Numbered from the stretch's first letter, positions 9,208 to 35,737 are shown. The stretch: DNA of 44,757 bases from Candidatus Goldiibacteriota bacterium (GCA_020052235.1 JAGVPM010000028.1:1-44757); one strand, 5' to 3'. Made by a program: numbers and translations. The notes: a model not told the origin generated them from the sequence alone.

Positions 9208-9253
9208 AAAAAAACCCCCGCCTTCGCTTCACCTTGAAACGTAGGCAGGGGTT
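9208..9253 (-). terminator. intrinsic terminator of the Hsp70/GspE-like operon
   Basis: On the minus strand AACCCCTGCCT pairs with AGGCGGGGGTT (one mismatch) around a loop of about 20 bases, and the stem is followed by seven T residues (A run 9208-9214). It starts 17 bases after the stop of the GspE/PilB-like gene and ends the five-gene operon. Confidence 0.85.
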
Positions 9254-9269
9254 CAGGAAGCAGTTTAGC

Positions 9270-11102
9270 TCAGCCGGCCACGCGGAGCAATTCCTCGTAC
9301 GAGGTTATGCCCGCCAGCGCTTTGGCTTCCAATTGGGCTTTCATGGAAACGAACCCCGGAACATCCGCCATGGCTTTTTTCAAAACCACGGTAGGCGCTT
9401 TGGCAATAATCGCCTCGCGCACATTATCCGTCACAGGCAGCACTTCAAAAACCGAAACCCGTCCGCGATACCCGGTTTTCGAACAATTCTCACAGCCTTT
9501 GCCGCGGTACAGAACCACTTTTTTACCCGCAGCCTGAGGTCCGAAACGTTTGGCAATATCCGCCGTTGCTTCATAGCTTTCTTTGCATTTCGGACAGATG
9601 ATGCGCACCAAACGTTGATTGACCAAAAGATTCAGGCTTGAACCCAGCAGATACGGTTCCACGCCCATATTGATCAAATACTGAATGGCGCCCAGGGTAT
9701 CGTTGGCGTGCAGGGTGGAAATAATCAAGTGACCCGTCGGCACCGCGTCCAAAACCAACCGCGCGGTTTCAATATCATGCATTTCCCCCACCAGCAAAAC
9801 ATCCGAATCCTGCTCGAGCATGGCGCGCACGCCGTTGGCATATGTAAAACCGCGTTTCTCGATAACTACTACCTGATTAACCCCGGAGAGCGAATAATCC
9901 ACGGGCTCATCCACGGAAGAAACATTTTTTGTAGGATGATTCAAAGCATTCAAGGTGGCATACGCCGTTGTGGTTTTCCCGCTGCCCTTGGGCCCTACGA
10001 TCAAAATCATACCGCTGGGAAGCTGCAATTGCTGGCGGAAAATCTGCAATTGATTGGGCTCCATGCCCACTTTGTCCAAATCCACAATCGGTGTTTCGGC
10101 ATTCAAAATGCGCATCACAATTTTTTCGCCCCAAAGCGTAGGCGCAATCATGATCAGCATGGAAACTTCCTTGCCGGGAATTTTCAACTTTAAGCGGCCT
10201 TGCTGGGCCGTGCGTTTCTCATTGGGATCCATTTCAGCCATGGTTTTTATTTTCGCGGCCAAAGCGGAAGCCAACGTACGCGGAGGAGACTGGACTTCCT
10301 GAAGTATGCCGTCAATGCGCCAGCGAATGCGGAACGACCGTTCATAGGGTTCAAAATGCACATCCGTGGCTCCCACCTTGGTGGCTTCCACCAACACACT
10401 GGTTAAAAAATTCAATACCGGAGTATCGCCGCCCATGGCCGAAGCCGTGGGAATGGCTGAACTTCCGGAGGAAGATGTTTCCGGATACGCTGCCGCCGCC
10501 GAAGCTGCGGACGTAGCCATCGAGGGCACGGAGGGCGCTGACCCGGCGGACGGCATTGAAGCGTGCTGCATGCCCCCCGCATTCATACCCGGTACCGAAG
10601 GCACCGCGCCAAAAGAATCATCCTTGCTTGACGCTTTCACCAATTCACCCGCATCTTCCTCTTTAAATCCAAAATACTTATCCAACGCGGTTTTGATTTC
10701 CTTTTCCGACGTCAACCGCAAATCCAAATCACAATGCGTGGATAATTTGATGTCGTCGGTAACGAAAACATTGCTGGGATCGGCCAGCGCCAAAATTAAA
10801 GTATTCCCCTTTTTCGTAACGGGAATAACATGCTGTGAACGCATTAACTGCTCAGGCAAAAGCTTCAAAACCGCTTGAGAAATATTTTGCATTTCATTGA
10901 GCGGCATGTAGGGAATGCCGAATTGATTGCCCAAAAAGGCGTAAAGCACCTCATGGGTAACATAGCCCTTGCGGACCATGACTTCGCCGACTTTTTCTCC
11001 GGTAACCTTTTGTTCCTGCAGGCATTCCTGAAGTTGATCTTTGGTGATAATCTCTTCGTCCATCAACATTTCGCCGATACGATGGCCTTTTTTAGTTGCC
11101 AT
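9270..11102 (-). CDS. GspE/PilB-type secretion ATPase with altered conserved motifs
   Basis: A 610-residue protein with an N-terminal GSPII_E_N/MshEN-like domain (about 1-145), a Pro/Ala/Ser/Met-rich linker (about 160-225) and a C-terminal hexameric ATPase domain. Walker A is GPKGSGKTT (370-378), the Walker B region is VLLVGEMHD (435-443), the His box is STLHAND, and a tetracysteine zinc site is present (CPKC 503-506, CENC 537-540). Several usual residues differ: the RVSTLPT arginine segment reads LIMIAPT, the EDPVE Asp box reads DEPVD, and GEIRD reads GEMHD. In the family these residues act in catalysis and subunit contact, so activity may be reduced or specialised. It is the last gene of an operon with Hsp70, J-protein, pseudo-cyclase and PQQ genes; no pilin or GspF-like gene is nearby. 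AGGGAGGAA precedes the ATG. Confidence 0.9.
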   Translation of the reverse strand: MATKKGHRIGEMLMDEEIITKDQLQECLQEQKVTGEKVGEVMVRKGYVTHEVLYAFLGNQFGIPYMPLNEMQNISQAVLKLLPEQLMRSQHVIPVTKKGNTLILALADPSNVFVTDDIKLSTHCDLDLRLTSEKEIKTALDKYFGFKEEDAGELVKASSKDDSFGAVPSVPGMNAGGMQHASMPSAGSAPSVPSMATSAASAAAAYPETSSSGSSAIPTASAMGGDTPVLNFLTSVLVEATKVGATDVHFEPYERSFRIRWRIDGILQEVQSPPRTLASALAAKIKTMAEMDPNEKRTAQQGRLKLKIPGKEVSMLIMIAPTLWGEKIVMRILNAETPIVDLDKVGMEPNQLQIFRQQLQLPSGMILIVGPKGSGKTTTAYATLNALNHPTKNVSSVDEPVDYSLSGVNQVVVIEKRGFTYANGVRAMLEQDSDVLLVGEMHDIETARLVLDAVPTGHLIISTLHANDTLGAIQYLINMGVEPYLLGSSLNLLVNQRLVRIICPKCKESYEATADIAKRFGPQAAGKKVVLYRGKGCENCSKTGYRGRVSVFEVLPVTDNVREAIIAKAPTVVLKKAMADVPGFVSMKAQLEAKALAGITSYEELLRVAG

Positions 11103-11141
11103 GGAACTTCCTCCCTAAGCCTAGTGGAATCGTTTGCGCTT

Positions 11142-12839
11142 TTAGCTTCCGAACAATCCGAACAGCCCTTTTTTCTTTTCGTTTTTCTTGACTTCACCTG
11201 CATCCTCGGGGCCTTCAGGCTTGGCGGCCTGAGTGTATTCGCCTTTTTTCCCGCCCCTGGCATCCCCGGAATCCGCAGGCCGATTTTTCGCCGTGGATTG
11301 TTCCTGGGAATATTGGGAAATTTCAGCCTGCGACAGCCCTGAATTGGGTGTGATCTTAATGGCCTGTTCTTTGCCCGTGGCCAAATCCGTGGCCGACACG
11401 CGCACGATGCCGTTGGCATCCACATCAAACGCCACTTCAATCTGAGGTATCTCGCGGGGGGCCGGAGGAATGCCGACCAAATCAAACGTACCGATCAGTT
11501 TGTTGTCCGCGGCCATGGGTTTTTCGCCCTGATAGACTTGAATACGGACAAATGTCTGATTGTCCTTGGCGGTCGAGAAAATCTCGCTCTTGCGGATCGG
11601 AATGGTGGAGTTTTTTTCCACAATTTTCGAAAACATGCCGCCCTCGGTGCGGATGCCCAATGAGAACGGCGTTACATCCAGCAGCAGAATATCCCGGATA
11701 TTGCCCTTCAGCACCGAAGCTTGAATGGCTGCGCCGGCTGCCACGGATTCATCGGGATTGACTCCCGGGAACGGATCTTTGCCGAACATGTGCCGGACCA
11801 CTTCGCGAACCCTAGGCATGCGGGTCATGCCGCCGACCAAGACCACTTCATCAATGTCATTGGCGCGCAAACCCGAATCATGCAACGCCTGCTCGCAGGG
11901 GAGCAACGTAGCGTCCACCAAATCCTTGGTCAGCTCTTCCAATTTTGGCCGCGTCAGTTTGGCTGCCAAGTGTTTGGGGCCTGATGAATCCGAAGCAATA
12001 AACGGCAGGGTTATTTCCGCCAATGGTTTCTCGGACAATTCGCATTTGGCTTTCTCCGCCACTTCCTTCAACCGCTGCAGCGCAATCCGGTCTTTGCGCA
12101 AATCAATGTTCTCTTTGCTCATAAAATCATTGATCAGCCATTCAATCACGCGCTGATCAAAGTCATCACCGCCCAAATGGGTATCGCCGCAGGTGGCTTT
12201 GACTTCAAACACGCCATTGCCCAATTCCAGAATGCTCAAATCAAACGTCCCGCCGCCCAAGTCGTAAACGGCAATTTTGCGTTTGGTTTTACGGTCAAAC
12301 CCGGCTGCCAAAGAAGCGGCCGTCGGTTCATTGATAATGCGCAAAACATCCAACCCGGCAATTTTACCCGCATCTTTGGTGGCCTGGCGCTGGCTGTCAT
12401 TAAAATAGGCCGGACAGGTGATGACGGCCTTCTCCACCACTTCCCCCAGGAAATTCTCGGCATCCCGTTTCATTTTCGCCAAAATCATGGCGGAAATTTC
12501 CGGCGGCGAATAATCGCGGTTGCGGATCCGGACGCGGACATCGCCGTTGGCCGAAGTGACCAGTTGATACGGAACCAATTCCCGGTCTTTTTGCACGGCC
12601 GGATCGGTTAATTTCAATCCCATGAACCGTTTGACGGAAAAAACCGTCGATTCCGGATTAATCACTTCCTGGCGTTTGGCAGGCTCGCCTACGACCCATT
12701 CCCCGGTTTTTAAAAAGCTGACAACCGAGGGGGTGGTGCGCATGCCTTCGGCATTAGGAATAATCACCAGTTCGTTTTCCTGCATAATCGCCCCGCAAGA
12801 ATTGGTCGTCCCCAAATCTATACCGATGATTTTTGACAT
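11142..12839 (-). CDS. Hsp70 (DnaK-like) chaperone lacking the helical lid
   Basis: The start is the ATG at 12839 ([14 protein letters not shown]), giving 565 residues. The ATPase domain is intact: IDLGTTNS (7-14), Lys70, [12 protein letters not shown] (169-180), DLGGGTFD (193-200) and [11 protein letters not shown]. The interdomain linker LLLDVTP (385-391) and beta substrate-binding domain (about 392-500) are present. The alpha-helical lid of DnaK is absent: after residue about 505 there is only a charged, Gly/Pro-rich tail ending in [15 protein letters not shown]. The basic-hydrophobic end could bind a membrane or partner. A J-domain gene lies 27 bases upstream and is its likely co-chaperone. 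No grpE is present. This is a paralogue rather than housekeeping DnaK, judged by length and context. Confidence 0.93.
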
Positions 12840-12866
12840 TCGAACCAACCTTCCCTTTCTAAATGG

Positions 12867-13406
12867 TTAACCCTTCAATTCATCCAAACGGCGGATGGTG
12901 CGCCTGATTTCCTGATCGTTCGCGTTCATTTCCTGAACCCGGTGAAAATACGAACGGGCTTCAACATATTTTTTCATATCCACCAAGCATAAGCCGATGT
13001 TGTACAATGCTTCCGGAAACCCGGCCCACATGCCGACCGCTTCCTGAAATTTCAACATGGCTTTGGATTTTTGTTTGGTAAACAACGCCACTCCGGCGTT
13101 AAAACGCAAAAGCGCATCTTCCCATTGTTTTTTCTTTTTCTTCTGGAAAAAATAAAATTTCCGCTCCGCCGCATGTTTCTTCATTGGGCAATAAATTTGA
13201 AAATTATGCAATTTGCGTTTTTCCGCATCCGATAAACACCGGAAAGCTTCCACCACCTTGGCGGTCATTTGGTGGGCCCAATCCGCCCGGTCGGGATTAT
13301 GGTCCGGATGATATTTATACAACAGCATCCGGTAGGAATTTTCAATGTCCTCGGTGGTCGCAGCCGGATAGACTTCCAAAATCTCATAATAATTTTTTTC
13401 GTTCAC
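12867..13406 (-). CDS. J-domain protein with C-terminal TPR-like repeats
   Basis: A 179-residue protein starting at a GTG. Residues 4-68 form a J domain (NYYEILEVYPAATTEDIENS) with the HPD motif at 33-35, which stimulates Hsp70 ATPase. A basic stretch (FFQKKKKKQWEDALLRF, about 85-100) leads to TPR-like helices to the end (ALYNIGLCLVDMKKYVEARSYF). It lacks the Gly/Phe-rich, zinc-finger and client-binding parts of DnaJ, so it probably recruits the neighbouring lidless Hsp70 to a specific partner through its TPR part. Gaps of 24 and 27 bases to its neighbours place it within the operon. Confidence 0.93.
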   Translation of the reverse strand: MNEKNYYEILEVYPAATTEDIENSYRMLLYKYHPDHNPDRADWAHQMTAKVVEAFRCLSDAEKRKLHNFQIYCPMKKHAAERKFYFFQKKKKKQWEDALLRFNAGVALFTKQKSKAMLKFQEAVGMWAGFPEALYNIGLCLVDMKKYVEARSYFHRVQEMNANDQEIRRTIRRLDELKG

Positions 13407-13430
13407 GCGCCCCCGCCCTTAGATAACGTA

Positions 13431-14888
13431 TTAAAACTTCGCCCCGGTGATCCGGTATACTTCCAGCATCTCCCCGGTATCGGGCATTTGCAATTCTTCC
13501 ACTTTTTCTCCGCGCACCAAATTGGTCACCCTTTGAAAAACATTGCCCGCAACCATGACCATGGATACGGGTTGCGTGCTCATTTTCTGGGTAAACGACA
13601 AATAATCCCGGATCACTTCCATGGACGCAAATCCCTTGGGAGTCAGCATGGAGCCTTCCGCTTCCCCCAAGGTCACTGCCGAGGAAATATACAGCGGGGT
13701 CTCGTTGCGCTGCACCCGGCCTTTATTAATCTCGGCCAAGGTTTTCTGCATGGAGACCGCGGTTAAAATCGCGCGCCGGTCATCGTCGGTATGCGCCGCC
13801 GGGATTCCAAAAACCACCACAAACATGGTTTCAGTCAATTTATAAACCTGGCCTTCGTATTCAAAAATTGTCGACATATACTTCCGGAAATAATGATCCA
13901 GCGAGGAAGCCAGCCCCGCCGCTTCCTGCGAGGTGGCATTCTGCGCCAATTGGGTTAAATCGGCGAACAACAGCGCCACGGAGTGGCGTTTGCCTGCGGC
14001 GGATTGCAACGCCAAGGCGTTGGCGTCGACAAAGCGTTCCTGGGCTTCCTTGGTGATATACAATTGAAACGATTCCTTGATTTTGTTCACTTCTTTCAAT
14101 TCATCGGCCACCACATCAAAAGCGTCCTTGATGCGGACTTTTTCCTTCAAGTCCTGGACCATCAAATTAAAGCTCTCGGTCAGCAGTCCGATTTCATCTT
14201 TGCTGATGACCGGCGCGGCAACACCCAAATCACCTTGGGCTACTTTGGCCATGGCCGCGGTTAAATCTTCAATGGGTTTGGTGACGGTTTTGCCCAGCCA
14301 CATGGCTCCCACAAAACCAACCACCATCATCAGCAGGGTAAGCAATATGTTCCGCACCTGCGCCCACATGATGTCCCGCTTTAATGCCAATAAGGAAAAC
14401 CGGATATTGACGGTGGCAAACCGGGTGTCTTCCACCACGATATCGCCGGCGATTTTCGCCGTATTTCCGGCCGGGAATTTGTATTGCACCAATTGATTCA
14501 AACTTTCCATGGATTCATCCAGCGAAAGTTTCGGATCGAGTTTACGGACACTTTCGGGATTGAGCGTAAACGCCTTAACTTCCCCGTCGTTGGTGACAAT
14601 GGAAATATACAAGATGTTGGAATCCAAGTTGCGGATAACTTTGATGAACTCGCGAAAGATCGGCCAAGCCACGCTCTCGCCGGCCAAGGGCTCGATGAGT
14701 TTTAGGGCCGCCACCATGTTGGCGACATCGGTCATGCGCTTGTCCATTTCCATGGTCTTAAGGCGCGCTTCCTGGTAAATGGTAAAATACGAAACCGCGC
14801 CCATGATCAACGCGACCAAGGTAATAATCAGCACGGTGATTTTCAGCGCCAGTCCGAATTGAGCTTTCTTTTTATTTTCGATCGGCAT
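13431..14888 (-). CDS. membrane sensor with HAMP and degenerate class III cyclase domain
   Basis: A 485-residue inner-membrane protein: transmembrane helix (about 14-36), extracytoplasmic sensor (about 38-178), second helix (181-199), HAMP domain (about 197-250, TKPIEDLTAAMAKVAQGDLG and DEIGLLTESFNLM) and a class III adenylate/guanylate cyclase-like domain (about 300-440). LLFADLTQLA keeps the first metal-site Asp (310). The second metal-site loop, usually KFIGDAIMAVFG, reads KLTETMFVVVFG, so the second Asp is replaced by Thr354. The later Gly-rich loop that usually contains GN is also altered. It is therefore likely a non-catalytic signalling or scaffold domain. It starts 13 bases after the PQQ-lipoprotein gene stops, so the two may form an envelope-to-cytoplasm pair. 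Confidence 0.9.
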   Translation of the reverse strand: MPIENKKKAQFGLALKITVLIITLVALIMGAVSYFTIYQEARLKTMEMDKRMTDVANMVAALKLIEPLAGESVAWPIFREFIKVIRNLDSNILYISIVTNDGEVKAFTLNPESVRKLDPKLSLDESMESLNQLVQYKFPAGNTAKIAGDIVVEDTRFATVNIRFSLLALKRDIMWAQVRNILLTLLMMVVGFVGAMWLGKTVTKPIEDLTAAMAKVAQGDLGVAAPVISKDEIGLLTESFNLMVQDLKEKVRIKDAFDVVADELKEVNKIKESFQLYITKEAQERFVDANALALQSAAGKRHSVALLFADLTQLAQNATSQEAAGLASSLDHYFRKYMSTIFEYEGQVYKLTETMFVVVFGIPAAHTDDDRRAILTAVSMQKTLAEINKGRVQRNETPLYISSAVTLGEAEGSMLTPKGFASMEVIRDYLSFTQKMSTQPVSMVMVAGNVFQRVTNLVRGEKVEELQMPDTGEMLEVYRITGAKF

Positions 14889-14901
14889 GAATTCTCGGCT
14901 C

Positions 14902-16314
14902 CTATTGGGCTATTGCCGTAAATGCATACACACTGCGGTCAAACGAGCCAATGACCAACAACCCGTCCGCGATAACCGGGGACGAATCCACGCCTCCGCC
15001 CGAGGCATAGGTCCATTTTTGTGATCCATCCTGGGCGCGCAAGGCAAACAGCGTATTTCCCGATCCCACGTAGACATTGGCGCCAAACTCCACCGGGGAA
15101 GACGTAATTTTTCCCTTCAGTTTGGTTTTCCAGCGAATCGCACCCGTTTCGCTGTTAAGGGCATACAGGTTCATGTCATTGGCGCCGACAAAAAGGTATT
15201 TGCCGGATAAACACGGCGATGAGGAAACCCATCCCCCGGCCGCGCATTTCCAAGCTAATTCGCCGTTGGCCATATTCAAGGCATAAATGTTTTTATCATC
15301 CGAGCCGAAATATACCTTATCCTCGCCCACGGCCGCGGTTGAAAAAATCCGGCTGCCCGTGGCAAAGGACCATTTCGGTTCGCCGGAAGCCGCATCCAGT
15401 GCGTAAAATGTTTTTCCCAAGGTGCCGATAAACACCATGCCGTTTTGCACTTTGGGGCTGGCGGCAATAGGGCCGTCGGTTTTACGTTTCCAGGCCATGG
15501 CGCCGTTGGCCTCGCTGAATGCATATACATTCCCATCCATGGAACCCACAAAAACAAAACCCCCAGCCACGGCCGGAGAGGAAAAATGCACGGGGCCACC
15601 GGTCATGGCACGCCAAAGCAATGCTCCGGTTTTGGCATTCAAACAGTAAAGATACGTATCATCCGAGCCTATAAAAACCTTGCCGTTAACCACGGCCGGA
15701 GAGGATGATACCGGCCCGCCGGTTTGTTTTTCCCATATCGGGCGCCCATCTTTGGCATTGATGGCATATACATTATTGTCATTGGAACCAATGTAAATCA
15801 CACCCCCAACGATGGCGGCCGAACCGTCAACTTTTTCTCCCGTGCGGTATTTCCATTGCAGGTCCAAGGGAATGGTAAACGTTGCGCCGCCGGCAGGCCT
15901 GCTTTTTTCATTTTGGCGGAACATGGGCCATCCGCTGTTGGACCCGCCGGAAAAAACGGGAACCGCGGCTTTAACCGGAGCTTGGGCAGCAGTTCCGGCC
16001 GAAGCTGCCGGCACGGATTGAATTTGATTTTGCACGGCCGCAATTTGCTGTTCGATTTTCTGGACTTCTTTTCTTGATTGGGGAGCATCGCTGGAACGCA
16101 CGCGCGCCAAGCTGGCCTGCAATTCTTCCAGGCGTTTTTTTTGTTCTGCAATGATTTTTTCTTGTTCTGCGGCTTTTTGTTGTGTTTGGGCATTGCCCGA
16201 GACATTGAATTGAATTTTAATTTCTTTTTCTTGGGCCGATTGACCGCACCCGCCGATAAAAATCATGATTCCGAACGTGAGGAGCAATAACCATTGCGTG
16301 TTTTTTGATGTCAT
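14902..16314 (-). CDS. PQQ-type beta-propeller lipoprotein with coiled-coil stalk
   Basis: The start is the ATG at 16314 (MTSKNTQWLLLL) with GAGGTG upstream, giving 470 residues. A signal peptide ends in a lipobox IGGC with Cys23, so the protein is probably a lipoprotein. A Gln/Glu/Lys-rich coiled coil (about 40-100) and a Ala/Pro linker lead to a propeller (about 145-470) made of repeats of the type VYAIN-x-DG-x-x-W-x-x-x-TGG-x-x-x-SSP-x-x-x-x-x-x-VFIGS. The fold resembles BamB and quinoprotein propellers; I see no reason to assume a bound PQQ cofactor. It is the first gene of the operon, behind the promoter at 16357-16386. BamB-like scaffolding is possible, but bamA is elsewhere and the operon context points to a different partner. 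Confidence 0.9.
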   Translation of the reverse strand: MTSKNTQWLLLLTFGIMIFIGGCGQSAQEKEIKIQFNVSGNAQTQQKAAEQEKIIAEQKKRLEELQASLARVRSSDAPQSRKEVQKIEQQIAAVQNQIQSVPAASAGTAAQAPVKAAVPVFSGGSNSGWPMFRQNEKSRPAGGATFTIPLDLQWKYRTGEKVDGSAAIVGGVIYIGSNDNNVYAINAKDGRPIWEKQTGGPVSSSPAVVNGKVFIGSDDTYLYCLNAKTGALLWRAMTGGPVHFSSPAVAGGFVFVGSMDGNVYAFSEANGAMAWKRKTDGPIAASPKVQNGMVFIGTLGKTFYALDAASGEPKWSFATGSRIFSTAAVGEDKVYFGSDDKNIYALNMANGELAWKCAAGGWVSSSPCLSGKYLFVGANDMNLYALNSETGAIRWKTKLKGKITSSPVEFGANVYVGSGNTLFALRAQDGSQKWTYASGGGVDSSPVIADGLLVIGSFDRSVYAFTAIAQ

Positions 16315-16356
16315 GAGTCGCACCTCGTGGAAATGGTAGAAAATCAAATTTGTTTG

Positions 16357-16386
16357 ATAATATCATTCCAAGATTCGGCTTGTCAA
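16357..16386 (-). promoter_or_regulatory. sigma70-type promoter of the five-gene operon
   Basis: On the minus strand TTGACA (16381-16386) and TATTAT (16357-16362) are separated by 18 bases, 43 bases upstream of the PQQ-lipoprotein ATG. The -35 box is a perfect consensus match and the -10 box has five of six. Confidence 0.75.
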
Positions 16387-16430: not shown

Positions 16431-16529
16431 TTCACCGCAGAGGCGCAGAGGGCGCAGAGAAATACCTTAAAAATTAAACCTATTTTTTCCTGATAGAATC
16501 CTCTGCGTACTCTGCGCCTCTGCGGTGAA
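16431..16529. repeat. 99-bp inverted repeat (TTCACCGCAGAGG ends)
   Basis: A 20-bp arm (16431-16450) beginning TTCACCGCAGAGG has a perfect inverted copy at 16510-16529. It begins 6 bases beyond the smc stop and lies upstream of the PQQ operon promoter. The sequence between the arms is AT-rich and non-coding. It resembles a known widespread intergenic repeat type, and may also act as the 3' end hairpin of smc mRNA. Confidence 0.93.
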
Positions 16530-16535
16530 ATGGGG

Positions 16536-19500
16536 TCAATTTGCAGCAGCCAGTTCGGCCATTTTTTCCGATGATTCGGCGATGGGTTGAGCCTGATTTT
16601 GTCCTTTAAATTTAACTGAAACCAGCTTGGAGACACCGGGTTCCTGCATGGTGACGCCATATAAAACATCCGCTTTTTCCATGGTTATTTTATTGTGCGA
16701 AATAACGATGAATTGGGATCTCTTCGCAAATTCCTGTAAAATCCTGCCGAAACGGACGGTATTGGTATCATCCAACGGAGCGTCCATTTCGTCAAAGATG
16801 CAGAACGGACTCGGTTTAATCAGAAAGATGGCAAATAACAACGCAATGGCCGTCAGGGCTTTCTCTCCGCCGGAAAGAAGCGTTATATTTTGCAAACGCT
16901 TTCCCGGAGGCCGGGCGATGATTTCAATGCCGGTTTCCAAAAGATTGTTCTCATCGATCAAAATTAATTCAGCATCTCCCCCGTTGAACAAACGCCGGAA
17001 CACTTCCCTGAATTTTTCCTGAACCTGGGTAAAGGTTTCCAAAAACCGGGCCCGGCTTTCCTGATTGATCTTGGAAATCAAGCGTTGCAGGCTTTCCTTG
17101 GATTCTTTAAGATCATCCAATTGCTTGGTTAAAAATTCATACCGTTGCTGCAATTCCTGATATTCTTCCATGGCCACCAAGTTGACCGATCCCATGGAGG
17201 ACAACTTGTCCTTAATTTCCTGAATCCGGGCTTGAGCCGCTTTAGGATCCAGGACCTCAGCTGCCGGTTGCGCCGCTTCTTCGGTTGTTTCCCCTGGGGC
17301 CGGCAAAGCAGCGTGCTCCTCTTCAAGCGACAACGTTAAATGATATTCGGTTTGGAGGTACTCTTCCAAGGATTTAAGATTATATTCCAACTGGCGTTTT
17401 TCCAATTCCAATTGGTGCTGTTGCTGCTTGGCTTCATCCAAGCGGCGTTGGCGCGTCCGGAGCTCCTGGGCATAACTTTCTTTTTGGCCTACCACTTCAT
17501 GGCGTTTATTCTGAAAACCGCGCACTTCCAGATCACGGCTGGCTTTTTCAGTCTCCAGTTGCAACAGCAATTCGCGGCGCTGCTGCATTTGGGATGCCAA
17601 TTCAACGATACGCACTTGATCCCGTTCCCGGGTTTCGCGTTTCTCATCCAAGCGGCGCTCCAGCTCATGCAGTTCATGCATAACGCGTTCGGCATCCGCC
17701 ATGCAATTGCTGACTTGCTGCGATAAGGCCGCCAACGAAATCCGCAATTCCCCCGCGTGCAGGGCCCGGTCATCGTATTCCTGGCGGCGCGCTTCAATTT
17801 CAATTTGATGCTGGGAAAGGGCTTCCTGAGTTTGCCGATCATAGAGTTCAAGGTTCAACAATTCTTTTTCCGCATCGGCATGTTCCGCCTGTAAGGTCCG
17901 GCAAAGTTCAAACGTCTGATCCCGTTCCTGCTGCAAAGCCGACGTTTGTTGCTCCAGCTCTTTGCCCTGGCGCAAAACCTGCTCCAACGATTTCTCGGTT
18001 TTGGTAAGGCGGATCTGCAATTTATGCAACTCCGCATCATTGGCCGACAGCCCGCCGGTGATTTCTTCCAACCGCTGCGCCAACGTTTGCGCCTCCGTTT
18101 GGGCCGAGGTGCTGTTTTTCTGCAAAAGTATCAGTTCGTTTTGAAGTTCCTCAATCTCGCGCTCACGGCCCAGCAAACCCCGTTCCGGGATATCGCTGCT
18201 GCCGCCGGTGAGCCAACCGTTCATGGTTTCTATTTCACCATTTAATGTGACCAAGATGCCTTGAGCTCCGGCAGCACGGACTTGCCGCAGAGTTGCGTAA
18301 TCGTTCACTAAAACGGTTTGTGCCAAAAGCCGGTCAAACATGGCGCAGAAACGCTCGTCGATCTTCACCAAGCTGCGGGCCAGCCCGATCACGCCGGGCA
18401 AGTTCATCCAAGCTCCGTCCGCTGTTGCGGGTTCGGCATTCTCTTGGCCTGAAAAAGCATCCATGGGAATAAACGTAGCCCGGCCGCGGTTCCCCTCGGC
18501 CAAGAACGCCATGGCTTCGCGGGCATGCGTTTCCGATTGGACCAAAATATGCTGCAAACCGTGCCCCAGCAGCGCTTCAAAAGCAAATTCATATTTTTTA
18601 TCCGTGCGCATAAAATTCGCCACGGGTCCCAACACGCCCGGGAACCGTTCGGGATGGGCATTGTGCTCCAACAAGATCGTTTTGGCGCCCAATTCATACC
18701 CATCCAAGCCGTTTTTCAATTCTTCAATCCAATTCACACGCGCTTGCAACTGGGTAATGGTTTGGCCAAAATTGGCAATCATGTTTTCCAGGGTCGCCAG
18801 CGTCTTTTCCAAGCGTTCTTTTTCCACCAGCAGCGAAGACTTTTCCGTTTCCAAATTAAGGGCGGCATCCGCCAATGTTTCGCCTTCGTTTTCGTAGGTT
18901 TGCTTTTCCTGAAGCACCTGCGTGCGCTGCTGATTCAAGTTGCCCAACCGCTGTTCCAGTTGCTGCCAACGCTGTTCATGTTCGCCGCGCCGCACTTCCA
19001 AATTCTTCAAGGTGCCCCGCAGGGTGGACATTTGGTCCACCAGGGTCAACAGGCGGTTTTGCTGATCCTGAACGCGCATGGCCCGTTCTTTCATTTCATT
19101 TTCCAAGGCCGTCAGCCGTGCTTCATCCTGGCCCAGCGTGGTTTTCAATTGAGCCAATTCCTGTTCCTTGGCCTGGCGGCTTTCAAAAATCTGCGTGCTT
19201 TGCGAGCGCAGGAGCACTTCCTTTTCCCGGAATTCGGCCATCTCGGCATCCAAACGGGTAAGCCCAAGTTGCAAATCCTCTTGCCGCAATTCCGAGGAAG
19301 TGACAAACTCCTCGGCTTTAATCATTTCCTCGGCCACGCGATGCGCCGAAGCTTGCGCCTGTGTTAAAGCCGCATCCAAAACGGACAATTCCTCGTCAAA
19401 GGCGGCTACATCCATTTCCAAGGTTTCTTTTTGATTTTCCAATTCGCGAATGGAGGATAAACGTTCTTCCCAGGCATGCTCGAGTTTACGCAGGGCCCGG

Positions 19501-20452: not shown

Positions 20453-21268
20453 TTACGGTTTAAGGGCTACCATGGAGATGCGGGCTTGATTGGCCATGGC
20501 CAAGGTGGTTTCCGGCTGTAACAATAAAGTTTGCCCTGCGTCAAAAGCGATAACCGAAGCTTTCACTTTCATCATTGATTTAATGGTCTGAGGACCAACG
20601 ACCGGCATATCGAAGCGCAAATCCTGGTTTGGTTTAGTCACTTTAACCACCACAGCATCTTTTTTGGCAAATTTCCCGCCCCGGTCAATACAAGCATCCG
20701 TGCCTTCCATGGCCTCCACAGCCAATACGGCCTGGTTCCGCACCACCACGGTCTGACCAATATCGGCCCCGGCAATGTGTTTGGCAATGGTATATCCGAA
20801 TTGAATATCTTTTTTTTCTTGGTTATTGGGTTTGCGGCGGGTTAAAATCCCGGGCTGCGGCAAACATTCCTGCAGAAACGGCAAGGGAGATTCAAGCCGA
20901 ATTCCTTCTTTTCCCAGCGTATCCGCAACACCGCGTAAAATGGAATCAGCCCGCTTGTCTTTTAAAAGCGCCATGAGTGCGATGGCGCGCAGATCCAGCT
21001 TGAGGTTGGCAAACAGGCGTTTATGCCGGATCTGTCCGGCCATAAACGCCTGTTGTACGTGAGCGGTTTTAAAAACTTTAATCAGTGTCCCCAACTGGCC
21101 AATGCTGATCCAATGAATTTCATCCACCAGAGTCTTCAGTTGCGGCGAAGTTTCCTCGGGAAAAGCAATGGCACAAATACGAAAACCCTGCCGGCGGGCG
21201 GACTTGGCGAAAACCAGGGGAAAATTTCCATTGCCCGCGATCAACCCCAGGGTTTCACCGGCTTTCAT
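20453..21268 (-). CDS. lpxI: UDP-2,3-diacylglucosamine pyrophosphatase LpxI
   Basis: LpxI hydrolyses UDP-2,3-diacylglucosamine to lipid X, the fourth step of lipid A synthesis, in bacteria that lack LpxH. The 271-residue protein has the N-terminal LGLIAGNGNFPLVFAKSARRQG segment, RADSILRGVADTLGKEGI, and the C-terminal (DUF1009) part with VEAMEGTDACI and RFDMPVVGPQTI. Its ATG overlaps the lpxA stop (TAATG), indicating coupled translation; this lpxA-lpxI order is known in lineages with LpxI. Confidence 0.95.
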   Translation of the reverse strand: MKAGETLGLIAGNGNFPLVFAKSARRQGFRICAIAFPEETSPQLKTLVDEIHWISIGQLGTLIKVFKTAHVQQAFMAGQIRHKRLFANLKLDLRAIALMALLKDKRADSILRGVADTLGKEGIRLESPLPFLQECLPQPGILTRRKPNNQEKKDIQFGYTIAKHIAGADIGQTVVVRNQAVLAVEAMEGTDACIDRGGKFAKKDAVVVKVTKPNQDLRFDMPVVGPQTIKSMMKVKASVIAFDAGQTLLLQPETTLAMANQARISMVALKP

Positions 21269-22041
21269 TACTTGGCAATTCCCCGTTCGGATGATTTGAT
21301 AAAATCAATAAACGGCGCAATTTCAGGGTACGCATTTTCTTCCTCGAGTTTTTTCAAAGCCTGCGTAACGTTCAACTTCGAACGGTACATCACGCGATAG
21401 GCATGCTCGATAATTTTGATCTGCTCGGGTTGGAAACCCTTGCGTTCCAAGCCGATTTTATTGATGCCCACGATGCGCAGCGGAGAACCGGCGCAAATAA
21501 TATAAGGCGGCACATCCTTGGGCACCCGTGAATGCCCCCCGATCATGGCATACGAACCAATGCGCACGTATTGATGAATGGCGTTCAAGCCGCCGATATT
21601 GGCGTGATCCATTATGACCACGTGCCCGGCCATGGCCACGGAGTTGGCGATGATATTGCTGTTGCCCACGATGCAATCGTGCGCCACATGGGAATAGGCC
21701 ATAAACAGATTGCCGTCCCCGACCGTGGTGGCATGGTCCTCGGACGTAGCGCGGTTCATGGTCACGTATTCACGTATTGTATTTTTGTTGCCTATTTTCA
21801 AATAGGAACGTTCGCCGCGAAATTTCAAATCCTGGCATTCGCTGCCTAAGATCGCACCGGTAAAAATCTTGCAGTCCGTACCAATCGTTGTCCAACCATC
21901 CAGTACGGCATGAGGGCCGACTTGCGTCCGGTCGCCCACTTCCACGAATTCGCCTATAATCGCCCCCGGAGCCACTTGGACATCATTGCCCAATTTGGCT
22001 TTCGGATGAACAACGGCATTCGGATGAATATTGACTGACAC
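21268..22041 (-). CDS. lpxA: UDP-N-acetylglucosamine acyltransferase
   Basis: LpxA adds the first 3-hydroxyacyl chain to UDP-GlcNAc. The 257-residue protein starts at a GTG with AAGGAGG seven bases upstream. Left-handed beta-helix hexapeptides fill residues about 5-185 (IHPNAVVHPKAKLGNDVQVAPGAIIGEFV), with YSHVAHDCIVGNSNIIAN containing the catalytic His, then GLNAIHQYVRIG and the helical C-terminus with GINKIGLERKGF. It lies between the lpxC/fabZ gene (180-base gap holding a repeat) and lpxI. Confidence 0.97.
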   Translation of the reverse strand: MSVNIHPNAVVHPKAKLGNDVQVAPGAIIGEFVEVGDRTQVGPHAVLDGWTTIGTDCKIFTGAILGSECQDLKFRGERSYLKIGNKNTIREYVTMNRATSEDHATTVGDGNLFMAYSHVAHDCIVGNSNIIANSVAMAGHVVIMDHANIGGLNAIHQYVRIGSYAMIGGHSRVPKDVPPYIICAGSPLRIVGINKIGLERKGFQPEQIKIIEHAYRVMYRSKLNVTQALKKLEEENAYPEIAPFIDFIKSSERGIAK

Positions 22042-22102
22042 AGTAACGCCTCCTTCAGCAAAACTTTGGGATCATTAAGAATACTATTTACCTTTGTTTT
22101 AC

Positions 22103-22181
22103 CGTCATACCGGCGAAAGCCGGTATCCAGTGAGCCTTGATTTTACGGCTTTCCTGGATCCCGGTTTTCACCGGGATGACG
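22103..22181. repeat. 79-bp palindromic repeat (CGTCATACCGG ends)
   Basis: CGTCATACCGGCGAAAGCCGG (first 20 at 22103-22122) has an imperfect inverted copy ending CACCGGGATGACG (22169-22181), with TATCCAG/CTGGATC pairing inside. This word pair is known from intergenic repeats of many Gram-negative genomes. It lies between lpxC/fabZ and lpxA. Confidence 0.88.
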
Positions 22182-22221
22182 AACAAACCTCAAGAACACA
22201 AATTTGCAAAAACCGGGTAAA

Positions 22222-23535
22222 TCATTTATCCATGATGGTCGACATTAATTCCGCTTCGCAAACCAAATCTTCGCCCACATAAGCCTTACCCTGCATTTTG
22301 GCGATTTTGCCTTTAATTTTGACGACCTCCAGCACGAACCGGAGTTGATCGCCGGGTATGACCGGCTTGCGGAATTTTACACCGTCGATGCTGACAAAGT
22401 ACACCACTTTGTCCTTGGCATCCGGAACCGCCTTCAAAAGCAACACGCCTCCGACTTGCGCCATGGCTTCGACAATGAGGACTCCGGGCATGATGGGGTG
22501 GCCCGGAAAGTGTCCTTGGAAAAAAGGTTCATTGATCGTGACATTTTTAATGCCCACGACCCGTTTTCCTTCTTCCATATCAATAATCCGGTCCACCAGC
22601 AGGAACGGATAACGATGCGGCAAAAATTGTTGAATCTCACTGGCTTGAATGATCATATTTTTCTCTTTCCCCCTTTGAAGATTTTCTTTTCTCAAAATGG
22701 CTTGACGCAGTTGTTTGGCAAACCGGGTATTCAAGGCATGCCCGGATTTGTAGACCACGAATTCGCCTTCGACCGGTTGCCCCGCTAATGCCAAATCGCC
22801 GATAAAATCTAAAATTTTATGATAAACCAGTTCGTACTCCGAACGCAACGGGCCGTTTAAAAACCCCTCGCGGCCTATCACCACGGCGTTCTCCAAGCTC
22901 CCGCCTTGCGCCAACCCCTGGGCCTTCAACCAGGCAATTTCATGTTCAAAACAAAAGGTGCGCGATTGTGCCACCATGGATTGAAAAATTTCCGGCGTGA
23001 CATCCACGGTTATACGCTGCCTGGGCAGCCAGGTGTTTTCAAATTGCAAAATGAAGGTGATTCTCAGCCCCGGATAAGGCCAGGCAACGATATATTTATC
23101 CCCGGCATCCAACTGAACCACTTGATCAATTTTGTGGACACGGCGAATGGAACCGGGTTGTTCCACCACACCTGCCGTAAGCAAAACCTCGACAAAAAGT
23201 TTGGCCGATCCATCCAGGATGGGAGGTTCATTGCCGGATATTTCAATGCGGCAATTGTCAATCCGCAATCCGGCCAAGGCCGCCAGCGCATGTTCTACCG
23301 TGTGAATTTCGCAGCCGTTCTCGCTCAATGTGGTTCCGCGTTGGGTCTGCGAAACCGTGTCTGCCGTAGGATGGATAACCGGCTGCCCCGGCAGATCGGT
23401 CCGTATAATGATATAGCCCGTATCTGGGGCGGCCGGCGCAAAGGTAAGTGATGAAATCGTGCCAGTATGCAGCCCGATCCCCTCCACGCTCACTTCGCGG
23501 GCCAGGGTTCGCTGGCAGGACGGCTTCCCGCTCAC
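22222..23535 (-). CDS. lpxC/fabZ: bifunctional UDP-3-O-acyl-GlcNAc deacetylase / 3-hydroxyacyl-ACP dehydratase
   Basis: A 437-residue fusion. Residues 1 to about 285 are LpxC, the zinc deacetylase that commits to lipid A: HTVEH (78-82), [10 protein letters not shown] (His239, Asp243, Asp247) and [10 protein letters not shown] (His266). Residues about 294-437 are FabZ, dehydratase of fatty-acid synthesis: [23 protein letters not shown] (catalytic His346 region) and VEAMAQ (Glu356). There is no stop between the parts and the join is a short basic linker ([13 protein letters not shown]). LpxC and FabZ compete for the same 3-hydroxyacyl pool, so fusion fixes their ratio. Such fusions are known in Bacteroidota and some other phyla. 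The GTG start overlaps the lpxD stop by 4 bases. Confidence 0.97.
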
Positions 23536-24554
23536 TTTTCCTCCAGCGCCTGTAAGCGTGCTTCCAACCGTTGGATTTTTTTAATTAATTCCGGCAAACG
23601 CGCTACGGCCGCCAATTGGCGCATGGACTCAGTATGCGGGCGCGCAGGATATCCTGAAACAAATTGTTTTTCCGGTACATCGCGCGTGATTCCGGCTTGA
23701 GCGCCTAAAACAGCATGATCGCCAATGGTCAAATGGCCGCTGAGACCGGCCTGTCCGCCGATCATGACATGTCGTCCAACTTTGGAACTACCGCTGATGC
23801 CGGTCTGGGCAGCAATAACCGTTAAGGGACCAATGGTCACATTATGGGCGATTTGTACCAAGTTATCAATTTTACAACCCTGGCCCAGCCGGGTTTCACC
23901 CAATGAGGCCCGGTCAATGGTCACATTGGCCCCGATTTCAACATCATCCTCAATCACCACAGTGCCGATTTGAGGAATTTTGGCATACGTTTCTCCCACT
24001 GGGGCGAATCCGAATCCGTCGGCGCCAATCACGGTGCCGGGATGGATGATGACACGGTTGCCGATGGCAACACGCTCACGCACAACCACGTTCGCATATA
24101 CGATGCAATGATCCCCCACCACGGTGTCATCCCCGATGAAAACCTGGGCCGTTAAAACCGTATGATCCCCCAAACGCGCTTTGGCCCCAACCACGCAAAA
24201 CGGGCCAATGGCGACATCTTGGCCCAGGTGCGCTTCGGGATGAACCACGGCCAGCGGATGAATGCCGGGAGCCGGCCGCGGGATGGGAGGAGCATACAAC
24301 CCCACCACCTTAGTAAAATCCGCGTAGGGATTCCGGCTGATCAGGCACGCGCGCTCATACGGAACCTCCGGTGAAATAATCACGGCTCCGGCGCGCGTGC
24401 CCGGCAACTGATCCTTGTATTTGGGATTAGCCAGAAAAGTAACCATGTTCGCCCCGGCCATCTCAAGCGTACTGACGCCTTCGATGAGCAGGGACGGTTC
24501 ACCACGGAACTCCAGCCCCAACCATTCCGCCAATTGCTTTAGCGTGCGTTGCAT
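23532..24554 (-). CDS. lpxD: UDP-3-O-(3-hydroxyacyl)glucosamine N-acyltransferase
   Basis: LpxD adds the N-linked 3-hydroxyacyl chain in lipid A synthesis. The 340-residue protein has the N-terminal uridine-binding domain ([37 protein letters not shown], about 7-45) and a beta-helix of hexapeptides (about 100-310) with [34 protein letters not shown] and the catalytic-His segment NLVQIAHNV. The C-terminus is a short coiled helix ([16 protein letters not shown]). It overlaps lpxC/fabZ and starts 15 bases after ompH ends. Confidence 0.97.
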
Positions 24555-24569
24555 AAACGAATATCCGAT

Positions 24570-25085
24570 CTATTTTTTCTTATTCAGCTGATCCAGCACT
24601 TTATAGGTAATATCTTCGCCGCCGTACAACAAAACTTCCTTATCAAAAACCGCATCATATTTTTCAGCCTTGGCGATCTGCCCTACCAATTCCTTGATGT
24701 CATTGACGATACTCTCCATCAAATCGCGCTGTTTTTTCATGAACGTGCTCTGGATATCCTTGTATTTTTCGCGGAACGCATCCTGATCGTCATCAAACTT
24801 GCTCTTCATGCCGTCGTACTGTTTTTGCGGCACAATGCCTTTTTTAGCGTTTAACTCTTCCTGTTGTTTTTCCAGTTTGTCGTTCATTTTTTTCAATTCC
24901 GTTTTCTTATCTTCAAATTCCTTTTCCAGGCGCGTCTGCGCTTCCTTGGTCTTCTGATATTCCTTTACAACCTTGGCCGTATCCACCACCGCGATTTTCG
25001 AAGACGCCGCCGCGCTCACACCGGCAATACCCACCCAAACCATGGCCAATGCCACTGCCAACCCTGCCTTGCTCATCATTTTCAT
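24570..25085 (-). CDS. OmpH/Skp family periplasmic chaperone
   Basis: A 171-residue secreted protein: signal peptide 1 to about 27 (MKMMSKAGLAVALAMVWVGI, ending VSAAA), then KIAVVDTAKVVKEYQKTKEAQ and two long charged helices forming the Skp-type tentacles, with the helix turn near KKGIVPQKQYDG. Skp binds unfolded outer-membrane proteins on the way to BamA, and its gene stands between bamA and lpxD here as in Proteobacteria. AAGGAGGACG precedes the ATG. Confidence 0.92.
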   Translation of the reverse strand: MKMMSKAGLAVALAMVWVGIAGVSAAASSKIAVVDTAKVVKEYQKTKEAQTRLEKEFEDKKTELKKMNDKLEKQQEELNAKKGIVPQKQYDGMKSKFDDDQDAFREKYKDIQSTFMKKQRDLMESIVNDIKELVGQIAKAEKYDAVFDKEVLLYGGEDITYKVLDQLNKKK

Positions 25086-25204
25086 AGAAACGTCCTCCTT
25101 AAAATAGTTTGCTGATTTATTATCCCCGCACCCGGGGTATCTATAACCGGAAACGGCCGAATTTCTCCACCCGCCAGCCGGATATTTTTCTTAATTAATT
25201 CAGC

Positions 25205-27532
25205 CTAAAAAATATTGCCAATATTAAAATGATAATTCATGGTCTGCGGATGTCCGTTGGGATCCGGATCCAAAGGATAGCCGAAATCAAACCTAATTAA
25301 AATAACCGTGCCGGGAATGGTCAAACGTATGCCCAAACCCACGCCCTTGTTCAAAGACGGATAGGACTCAAAATCATCCAATTTATCCCACGCATTGCCC
25401 GCGTCAAAAAAAGCCACACCCTTCAAGGGCCCGATAATGGGATAGTGCAATTCCACGTTGGAAACCAACCGCATTCTGCCTCCCAGCGGCGGGCCAAAAG
25501 CGCCTTCCCCGTAACCGCGGACCGTGTCCGTACCACCGGCGCGAAAACGTTTAGCCGGCGGCACATCGGTAAAGCCCGTCACGCCGTAATCATACCCATA
25601 GGCATAACCCGCTTCGCCATGCAGGGCCAACACCAGCTTCCATATCAGCGGTATATAATAACTGGTCTCGGCCAAATATTTCATATAATTGTTGTCGCCG
25701 CCCAAAGGGCCGCCGGCTATTTCAACCGACAACCTGTGATTCATGCCCGTGGTTGCGTCGAAAATATTATCGCGCGTATCGTAAACCAGGCTGGGGGTAA
25801 TGGAACTGGTATCGCTGCGCCCTTCGGCATAGGTGCTTTGAAGTTCCGGAGCCAATTCCGTATATTCATCGCTTTCCAGCTTATAGGTCAAATATCCCTT
25901 CCAAGCTTCGTCAAACCGTTTGCCCAGCCGGATATCGCCGCCTTGTGAAAGCAAATTGTAATTCTGGCCGTTGTAACCCTTGCGTTTGTTCACGTTCCAA
26001 ACATCCACGCCGAAAGAAACCGGCGAATCAAACAGATAAGGCTCCGTAAAGGACATCTGCCAGCTCTGGCGCAGGCTGCCCATTTCCCATTGCAGGCTCA
26101 CCGACTGGCCATTGCCGAATAAATTCGCCTGGGTCAGCTGCAAATATCCCATCAAATAATCAACCGAAGAATAACCCGCGCCCAAACTGATGGTGCCGGT
26201 ATGGCGTTCTTCCACATCAAAAACCAAAACTTGTTCCCCGGGGGTGGAACCGGGCTCCGTGTTGATCTTGACATCCTGAAAAAATCCCAAGTTCATGACT
26301 TTTTCACGCGACCGCTGAATTTGCCGCGTATCAAACGGCTCCCCCGGATTGACGGATAATTCACGGCGGATCACCTTGTCTTTGGTCATGGTGTTGCCGC
26401 GAATCTCAATTTTCTCAATCCGGGCAATGGTATTTTCTTTTATCCAGACCGTCACATCCACCTGTCCGCTGTCGTCGTGGTATTCCATTTCCGGGGAAAT
26501 ATCCGCGTAGATATACCCCTTCTCCGAATAGGCCATGCGGACTTGCTGCAAATCAGTTTCAAACATGATCCGGTTGAATAAATCACCGGTTTTCAAATCC
26601 GTTCTGCGCGTGAGTTCTTCCTCGGAATAAATGATGTTGCCCTTAATGTCCAATTTCCCGAATTTATACTGCACGCCCTCCAGCACATCCAACTGAATGG
26701 CCATTTCTTTTTTGCCCGCATCCACGCTCAAGGCCTTGGTTTTGATTTCCTGAAAATGCAGGTCAATATCCTGCAGCGTAAAACCGTCCAGTTTGGCTTT
26801 TAAGTACCCTTCTTTGGCATAACCGATCAATATCTTTTTTAAATCCTCTTTAAACGTTTCTTCTTCATAGGTTCCGCCAATGAACCAGCCGGATTCCTTG
26901 GTTTCCATGAACCCTTTAACTTTACTGTCCGAAAACGCCTGTAATCCGTTCAAGGTGATCTTGGTAACCTTGATCTTCATGCCTTCCTTGACTTGAAACT
27001 CCACAGCCATGCCTTTTCCTTGAGGAACAGCCTGGGTTTCAACCGCAGCCTGAAAAAATTCTTTTTCTTTATAATAGGCGGCTATTTTCGCAGCTGCTTT
27101 ATTAACTGAAAATTCATCATACGGCGTCCCGGTTTTCAATTCGCTCTTTTCAATGAGTTCCTTTTCATTGAACTCCTTATTTCCTTTCACTGCAATGGTG
27201 GTTATAATCGGTTTTTCAACCACATGAATGATCAAGCAAACGGACCCGTCGGTTAACGGTTGCAGGGAAAGTTGTATATCTTTAAACTTTTCCGTACGCC
27301 AGATCTCTTTAAAATCACGATCCAACAGCAGACGCACGTCGCTCACACGGTCAGCTTTCCGAACTTTCAGCCAGGAAATAATATCATCGTCGGCAATGGT
27401 TGTATTGCCTTGGACTTTAATTTCCGAAATAACGGCATCTTCGGAAATTTGGGCGGCCTGACTGGAAAAAGTAAAAAGGAACAGAACGAGAACCGCAATG
27501 AAAATATGAAAAAGCCTTGAAAACAAAGGCAA
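25205..27532 (-). CDS. bamA: outer-membrane protein assembly factor BamA
   Basis: BamA inserts beta-barrel proteins into the outer membrane. The 775-residue protein has a signal peptide (about 1-26), POTRA domains (about 30-430; for example VQGNTTIADDDIISWLKVRKAD and IEIRGNTMTKDKVIRRELSVNPGEPF) and a 16-strand barrel (about 450-775) with RFRAGGTDTVRGYGEGAFGPP, the conserved loop-6 VRGY motif, and the C-terminal beta-signal NYHFNIGNIF. The first codon is TTG close behind AAGGAGGG; a second TTG two codons later is possible. It heads the operon bamA-ompH-lpxD-lpxC/fabZ-lpxA-lpxI. Confidence 0.96.
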   Translation of the reverse strand: MPLFSRLFHIFIAVLVLFLFTFSSQAAQISEDAVISEIKVQGNTTIADDDIISWLKVRKADRVSDVRLLLDRDFKEIWRTEKFKDIQLSLQPLTDGSVCLIIHVVEKPIITTIAVKGNKEFNEKELIEKSELKTGTPYDEFSVNKAAAKIAAYYKEKEFFQAAVETQAVPQGKGMAVEFQVKEGMKIKVTKITLNGLQAFSDSKVKGFMETKESGWFIGGTYEEETFKEDLKKILIGYAKEGYLKAKLDGFTLQDIDLHFQEIKTKALSVDAGKKEMAIQLDVLEGVQYKFGKLDIKGNIIYSEEELTRRTDLKTGDLFNRIMFETDLQQVRMAYSEKGYIYADISPEMEYHDDSGQVDVTVWIKENTIARIEKIEIRGNTMTKDKVIRRELSVNPGEPFDTRQIQRSREKVMNLGFFQDVKINTEPGSTPGEQVLVFDVEERHTGTISLGAGYSSVDYLMGYLQLTQANLFGNGQSVSLQWEMGSLRQSWQMSFTEPYLFDSPVSFGVDVWNVNKRKGYNGQNYNLLSQGGDIRLGKRFDEAWKGYLTYKLESDEYTELAPELQSTYAEGRSDTSSITPSLVYDTRDNIFDATTGMNHRLSVEIAGGPLGGDNNYMKYLAETSYYIPLIWKLVLALHGEAGYAYGYDYGVTGFTDVPPAKRFRAGGTDTVRGYGEGAFGPPLGGRMRLVSNVELHYPIIGPLKGVAFFDAGNAWDKLDDFESYPSLNKGVGLGIRLTIPGTVILIRFDFGYPLDPDPNGHPQTMNYHFNIGNIF

Positions 27533-27559
27533 AATACCCTCCTTGAAAAAATTTGGTCA

Positions 27560-27588
27560 ATCTTATCAAAATGACATTGGAGCGTCAA
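27560..27588 (-). promoter_or_regulatory. sigma70-type promoter of the bamA-lpx operon
   Basis: TTGACG (27583-27588) and TAAGAT (27560-27565) on the minus strand, 17 bases apart, with the start expected about 20 bases before the bamA codon. Confidence 0.65.
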
Positions 27589-27665
27589 GCGAATTCCCTG
27601 ATTTGTAGTATCGTATTTGCCGGGAGTTTGAGCAATTAGTCAATTCTCAACTGTTTTGCCGGTGT

Positions 27666-27746
27666 CTGGTCACTTCGACAAGCTCAGTGACCAGGGGCGG
27701 ATCAATTTAAAGACGTTCGTTGAATCGGTTGCTGAGCTTGTCGAAG
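27666..27746. repeat. 81-bp palindromic repeat (TTCGACAAGCTCAG type)
   Basis: CTTCGACAAGCTCAG (27673-27687) is perfectly inverted at 27732-27746, and the left part is itself a hairpin (CTGGTCACT 27666-27674 with AGTGACCAG 27686-27694). Repeats with this core are familiar from many bacterial MAGs. It lies in the tamB-bamA gap just beyond the tamB stop. Confidence 0.92.
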
Positions 27747-27761
27747 CAATCGAAACGACCT

Positions 27762-35719: not shown

Positions 35720-35737
35720 GAATGCCTCCGCTTGCCG

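Follow-up and report, generated by a model that had tools for sequence, protein, structure and literature searches.

We report that a five-gene operon in a 44,757-nt stretch of DNA from Candidatus Goldiibacteriota bacterium (GCA_020052235.1 JAGVPM010000028.1:1-44757; hereafter the window) carries a displaced PilB, the former extension motor of the type IV pilus (T4P). As read from a protein tree and from synteny, PilB left the T4P locus and joined an operon with an Hsp70 and a protein combining a J-domain with TPR repeats (J-TPR). Judged by its residues, this PilB is losing its motor chemistry in most lineages while remaining under purifying selection. These results suggest that a pilus machine has been turned into a chaperone-controlled signalling device. 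Stated in full, the operon may constitute a chaperone-gated PilB signalling module that reads cyclic di-GMP (c-di-GMP) on a demotorised T4P basal body, a reading that draws on analogy and to which we give roughly an even chance. The operon and its flanking signals are laid out as follows.

16357..16386, minus strand: sigma-70-like promoter TTGACA-18-TATTAT (11 of 12 matches, extended -10 TG)
14902..16314, minus strand: PQQ-type beta-propeller lipoprotein with N-terminal coiled coil and lipobox IGGC (profile search, orthologue alignment)
13431..14888, minus strand: HAMP sensor, arranged as transmembrane segment, periplasmic domain, transmembrane segment, HAMP, coiled coil and predicted class III pseudo-cyclase (profiles, structure search)
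12867..13406, minus strand: J-TPR protein with intact HPD at residues 33-35 (profile and alignment)
11142..12848, minus strand: lidless Hsp70, without the alpha part of the substrate-binding domain (SBD-alpha), with a conserved 11-residue C-terminal motif (profile search, alignment)
9270..11102, minus strand: displaced, altered PilB with a c-di-GMP (MshEN) motif, Asp box VDEPVD and Walker B GEMHD
9208..9253, minus strand: intrinsic terminator (folding versus shuffles)

Using three of the five operon proteins, we searched 59 genomes, 45 of them from the same phylum and all compared as draft assemblies, and then read 40 loci. The order PQQ-HAMP-JTPR-HSP70-PilB, on one strand, recurred at 22 loci in 21 of the 45 phylum genomes, spanning seven families. 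It was found in all eight genomes of the window's order and in every genome of five further families (clade 2). All five genes lie on a single contig at 19 of the 22 loci, including two with a contig-cut PilB and one with a frameshift-split HAMP gene; the remaining three loci are broken by contig ends. HAMP protein identity between clade 2 and the window is only 25-28%, so gene order has outlived sequence similarity between the two clades. An order kept in every genome of seven families bears out the proposal, made in a first-pass annotation of the window, that the five genes form one system. The same annotation had named an Hsp70/J pair always travelling without the other three genes as evidence against that proposal. 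Such a pair was found in families f8 (beside obgE-proB-nadD) and f11 only, both of which still keep pilB in the T4P locus; the pair is therefore a separable module, and the five-gene unit stands. Two genomes showed additional copies: G043 holds two operons (L116 and L117), and G006, which has the full operon, also has another PQQ-HAMP pair that J, Hsp70 and PilB do not accompany (L098 302-3202; G006:C313).

Several comparisons identify the operon ATPase, by its sequence, as PilB. Its nearest solved structures in a Protein Data Bank search are PilB, and its best NCBIfam model is PilB TIGR02538, with scores (528 bits for the window, 411-479 for other operon copies) below the equivalog cut-off of 675.65 bits; the T4P-locus PilB of f8 scored 699 and 693 bits. 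In a tree of 47 proteins, operon PilBs formed a single clade (100/100) beside T4P-locus PilBs, with a joint branch supported at 97/98. The initial label of an altered GspE/PilB was accordingly correct, and tree and synteny sharpen it to a PilB that left its T4P locus. Two other identities were considered and rejected. The tree and the structure search ruled out a secretion ATPase (GspE) of a type II secretion system, and the co-occurrence of PilM, PilN, PilO, PilQ and PilT on one contig ruled out an orphan ATPase without any T4P, an idea raised by low T2SSE/T2SSF counts.

Synteny traces where the gene came from. The T4P locus of f8 reads dnaJ-rsmE-aroE-pilB-pilT-pilC; in f6 and f11, pilB accompanies pilT-pilC with dnaJ nearby, and in f3 and f12 it lies 1.3 kb from pilC. 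The same locus in the window's order reads dnaK-dnaJ-...-rsmE-(tldD)-aroE-pilT, with an aroE-pilT gap of 52 to 206 bases and no pilB. Clade-2 T4P loci run pilT-pilC-pilin-peptidase-pilM and on to pilQ, again without pilB. In the operon-bearing genomes checked, pilB thus sits in the operon where the T4P locus misses it. Separately, two clade-2 loci (L225 5308-8811 and L226 4110-7602) encode tandem, intact MshEN-type PilB paralogues, possible substitute extension motors; those at L225 adjoin AIM24 and MiaB-like genes, with no PilC beside them.

PilBs encoded in T4P loci retain GPTGSGK, ED, GEIRD and TLHTND, or nearly so. Among clade-2 operon PilBs, all 12 of 12 have the Walker-B GE changed to GD (once SD) and the catalytic His changed to Arg, and the Asp-box context is gone. 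Within the window's order, Walker-A Lys to Arg and His to Asn occur together in the same two genomes, one of which also has GD; these Walker-A and His losses affect part of f2. The window's genus keeps the Walker-A Lys, Walker-B Glu and His, but carries VDEPVD and GEMHD. Operon PilB and the HAMP protein both gave ratios of nonsynonymous to synonymous substitution rates of 0.04-0.14; the RecJ control was comparable or higher.

Operon PilB retains the zinc Cys4 and the c-di-GMP N-domain motif, scoring 61.6 bits in the window against a cut-off of 38 for the motif model NF053729, and every operon PilB tested, including those of clade 2 and f2, exceeded that cut-off. The MshEN N-domain, as described for Vibrio MshE, contains two 24-residue motifs 5 residues apart (PMC5013675), and operon PilBs share both the motifs and the spacing. 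Unlike MshEN ATPases, they have key Gly or Arg positions altered (in the first motif, Gly is changed to Glu in clade 1 and Arg is missing in clade 2), and their ATPase site is decaying. A linker of 62-137 residues joins the N-domain to the motor domain. GGDEF domains are plentiful, with 13 matches in the window's own genome.

We then considered what remains of the pilus. The window's order retains PilM, PilN, PilO, PilQ and a pilin-like gene. No two-domain PilC (T2SSF) was found in any of its eight genomes, which hold only single-domain TadB/TadC-like T2SSF proteins, and no A24_N prepilin peptidase was found in the genomes of this order; seven of the eight encode one short A24 protein each. 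The five PilT copies read from the order have lost GEMRD (GDLYD, SEF, SEL) and the His. In clade 2, PilC is present and PilT is intact. The first-pass annotation had the operon perhaps controlling assembly of a surface structure, which is doubtful in the window's order: with PilC and A24_N peptidase lost and PilT degenerate, regulation or signalling is the better fit. L229 3086-5356 and L233 8555-10825 each encode a 756-aa protein that joins a PilT-like ATPase to TPR repeats, and a PorV-like gene lies at L229 2062-3063.

The same inventory bears on two alternatives. PilB could still drive pilus extension in a T4P that is minimal or divergent, with Hsp70/J assembling or remodelling it and a diverged platform replacing PilC. 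The catalytic residues kept in the window's genus, the persistence of PilM to PilQ with the secretin and the pilin-like gene, and the short A24 peptidase in seven of eight genomes would all suit such a motor. We consider it unlikely given the order's missing two-domain T2SSF (8 of 8) and A24_N peptidase, its degenerate PilT, and the Walker-B Asp and missing His of all 12 clade-2 operon PilBs. Alternatively, the remnant could be a T4P-derived secretin transporter for export or DNA uptake, in which operon PilB supplies the power and the chaperones regulate, as the survival of PilQ, PilM, PilN, PilO and an ATPase without PilC might indicate. This is distinctly unlikely, as ATPase residues are gone in many members and no T4P-type transporter is known to do without a PilC/GspF platform.

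The operon Hsp70 comprises the nucleotide-binding domain and SBD-beta (PRK00290, 839 bits versus 648, residues 4-521). It lacks the SBD-alpha lid, as the PRK00290 match stops at 515 of 625 and the domain profile at 520 of 599; the lid is present in that genome's canonical DnaK. The C-terminal end has a conserved 12-residue form in the window's order, and KKKSIFDIFKKKEG with close variants in clade 2. At the DNA level, the window-order tail occurs once per genome in all eight genomes, always in the operon Hsp70 and with differing synonymous codons. A MinD-like amphipathic membrane anchor, suggested by eye, was rejected because the hydrophobic moment was 0.09 and 95% of shuffles scored higher; what remains is a conserved tail motif that may serve in docking. 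The Hsp70s of the f8 and f11 pairs are likewise lidless and end in a different conserved motif, not the operon tail; at L127-L129 and L125, where a lidless Hsp70 and J-TPR are encoded apart from the operon, the Hsp70 has a conserved VLTGDM ending. The HPD motif of J-TPR is invariant in 18 orthologues.

By profile, the window's operon domains are a PQQ/BamB-type propeller, HAMP, DnaJ plus TPR, Hsp70, and MshEN plus T2SSE. The lipobox Cys of the PQQ protein and the acidic/INxS segment that follows are conserved in all aligned orthologues. Assignment of this protein as BamB was rejected (187 bits versus an equivalog cut-off of 285). The C-domain of the HAMP protein adopts a class III cyclase fold according to profile and structure searches (6fht, 2w01), with a TM-score by target length of 0.66-0.69 to 2w01, from a structure model of moderate confidence (pLDDT 73). 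Its first metal Asp (D310) is invariant; the second is replaced by T, S, N, H, K or R in all but one member, and the transition-state Asn and Arg positions are not conserved. The HAMP protein is therefore a predicted pseudo-cyclase.

Genomic context differs between the clades. In the window's order, the operon adjoins smc-lpxI-lpxA-lpxC and bamA/tamB. Most clade-2 operons are preceded by a gene resembling a methyl-accepting chemotaxis protein (MCP) and by a PilZ-sized gene (Pfam check in two), additions that favour a signalling module, and pilB begins 3 bases after hsp70 at 11 of 13 clade-2 loci. Their downstream neighbour encodes a secreted immunoglobulin (Ig)-like-domain protein with weak C-terminal similarity to type IX secretion proteins, and a fold search of this sixth protein returned generic Ig-string matches only; at L100 (12781-14610) and in orthologues, this gene specifies secreted Ig repeats and a PNPFNP C-terminal domain, weakly PorU/PorZ-like. 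The lpx and bamA/tamB neighbours raise the further alternative of an envelope-stress or proteostasis operon, in which the BamB-like propeller, the sensor and the chaperones serve outer-membrane assembly and PilB is an unrelated rider. That view would have to accommodate clade-2 surroundings of MCP, PilZ and Ig-like genes with no lpx genes, the 3-base Hsp70-PilB spacing, a PQQ protein below the BamB cut-off, and the departure of pilB from the T4P locus exactly in the operon genomes checked; we regard it as very unlikely.

Returning to the signalling module, the propeller lipoprotein and HAMP pseudo-cyclase would read the state of the envelope or surface, the inactive cyclase domain acting as a binding partner rather than an enzyme. 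J-TPR would recruit Hsp70 to the PilB ring or to its long disordered linker; by analogy, action of Hsp70/J on PilB is plausible. The Hsp70 ATP cycle and c-di-GMP could then determine the conformation in which PilB meets PilM/PilN at what is left of the T4P basal body. Myxococcus PilB/StkA and cyanobacterial DnaK1/DnaJ3/PilB suggest, by analogy, that the likely output would be control of polysaccharide or adhesion, not pilus polymerisation. For the window's whole order, we put somewhat short of an even chance on conversion of the T4P into a pilus-less signalling complex that has lost its platform and dedicated prepilin peptidase, with PilT dead and PilB surviving as a (pseudo-)ATPase that reads c-di-GMP under Hsp70/J and an inactive membrane cyclase. 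A number of observations weigh against the signalling module. With its Lys, Glu and His kept, the window's PilB may still hydrolyse ATP, and the changed Gly and Arg positions make c-di-GMP binding uncertain. Assembly gaps or divergence in draft genomes could account in part for the missing PilC and peptidase, although the result is the same in all eight, of which five reach at least 90% completeness. The operon holds no polysaccharide genes. Finally, a Myxococcus Walker-B PilB mutant did not signal, so the clade-2 Walker-B change has no direct parallel there.

Parts of this scheme are already known, namely Hsp70/J-PilB coupling in cyanobacteria and signalling by ATPase-dead PilB in Myxococcus. 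Nostoc DnaK1 binds PilB in a two-hybrid assay and is needed for motility polysaccharide (PMC9239167). The DnaK1/DnaJ3/GrpE system of Nostoc punctiforme and Synechocystis thus resembles the operon in tying a dedicated Hsp70/J pair to the T4P extension ATPase. It differs in that dnaK1 lies between grpE and dnaJ11, the partner is DnaJ3, PilB is a motor, and neither a HAMP pseudo-cyclase nor a PQQ lipoprotein is described there (PMC9239167). In Myxococcus xanthus, which has the Hsp70s StkA and SglK, the short StkA (540 aa) acts between T4P and Dif, likewise linking T4P to polysaccharide regulation (PMC4319316, PMC8265645), and the Walker-A mutant PilB K327A, devoid of ATPase activity, drives exopolysaccharide production, whereas a Walker-B mutant does not (PMC5544727). 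Unlike the operon arrangement, stkA lies beside the SCP2-like stkB and stkC, not beside pilB or a J-protein gene, and PilB is also an active motor. In Xanthomonas and Pseudomonas, PilB has regulatory partners in PilZ and the degenerate FimX (PMC11656802), a parallel to the PilZ protein and degenerate cyclic-nucleotide enzyme seen here; FimX is a degenerate GGDEF-EAL protein without Hsp70/J, in contrast to the operon's class III cyclase fold with HAMP.

In the open-access literature, we found no account of an operon with pseudo-cyclase and propeller, of pilB relocation or of the motor decay. PilB has been suspected of pilus-independent signalling, and Hsp70s are known between T4P and polysaccharide secretion. 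The operon provides a natural experiment on this connection: what appears to be a single transcription unit joins Hsp70, J-protein, sensor and PilB, and PilB has given up motor function while purifying selection persists. For the signalling arm it supplies a minimal list of parts, and it offers a small protein set for binding tests. A T4P machine apparently without platform and motors is, in turn, a state absent from the open-access papers found.

The five minus-strand genes are separated by 13, 24, 18 and 39 bases, a spacing from which we infer co-transcription. Strand, gaps, site score and fold all agree with the earlier description of a promoter and a terminator bracketing five close-set genes. 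The promoter (16386-16357) is the top-scoring site of the region, and the PQQ gene probably starts at the ATG at 16314 rather than at an upstream TTG. The terminator (9253-9208) folds at -32 kcal/mol (z = -5.85, equalled by 0 of 200 shuffles) and has a T run after the hairpin, which is long and imperfect; a simple scan did not pick it up. Between smc and the promoter, positions 16432-16540 hold a long inverted repeat (TTCACCGCAGAGGCGCAGAG...CTCTGCGCCTCTGCGGTGAA), perhaps a remnant of a mobile element or similar to a repetitive extragenic palindrome.

Aligning J-TPR against 84,980 species genomes gave full-length relatives only in FCPU426, Goldbacteria/Goldiibacteriota, Firestonebacteria or generically labelled bacteria; one full-length relative sits in a record with a Methylomirabilis title. 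Below the full-length matches, which went down to 41% identity, came matches at 36% that covered the protein in part, and below these hits mostly limited to the J-domain. On this protein's evidence the host lineage is FCPU426/Goldbacteria/Firestonebacteria, not the Omnitrophota to which it was first assigned.

Two further gene runs occur in the window. Positions 20453-33284 hold an outer-membrane biogenesis run of lpxI, lpxA, an lpxC-fabZ fusion, an lpxD-like gene, ompH/skp, bamA and a gene for a 1840-aa TamB-like protein. At 33290-37293, a ClpC-like AAA protein, an ATP:guanido phosphotransferase (McsB-like) and a UVR-motif protein (McsA-like) are encoded in a row, resembling the protein-arginine phosphorylation operon of Firmicutes, here in a diderm candidate phylum.

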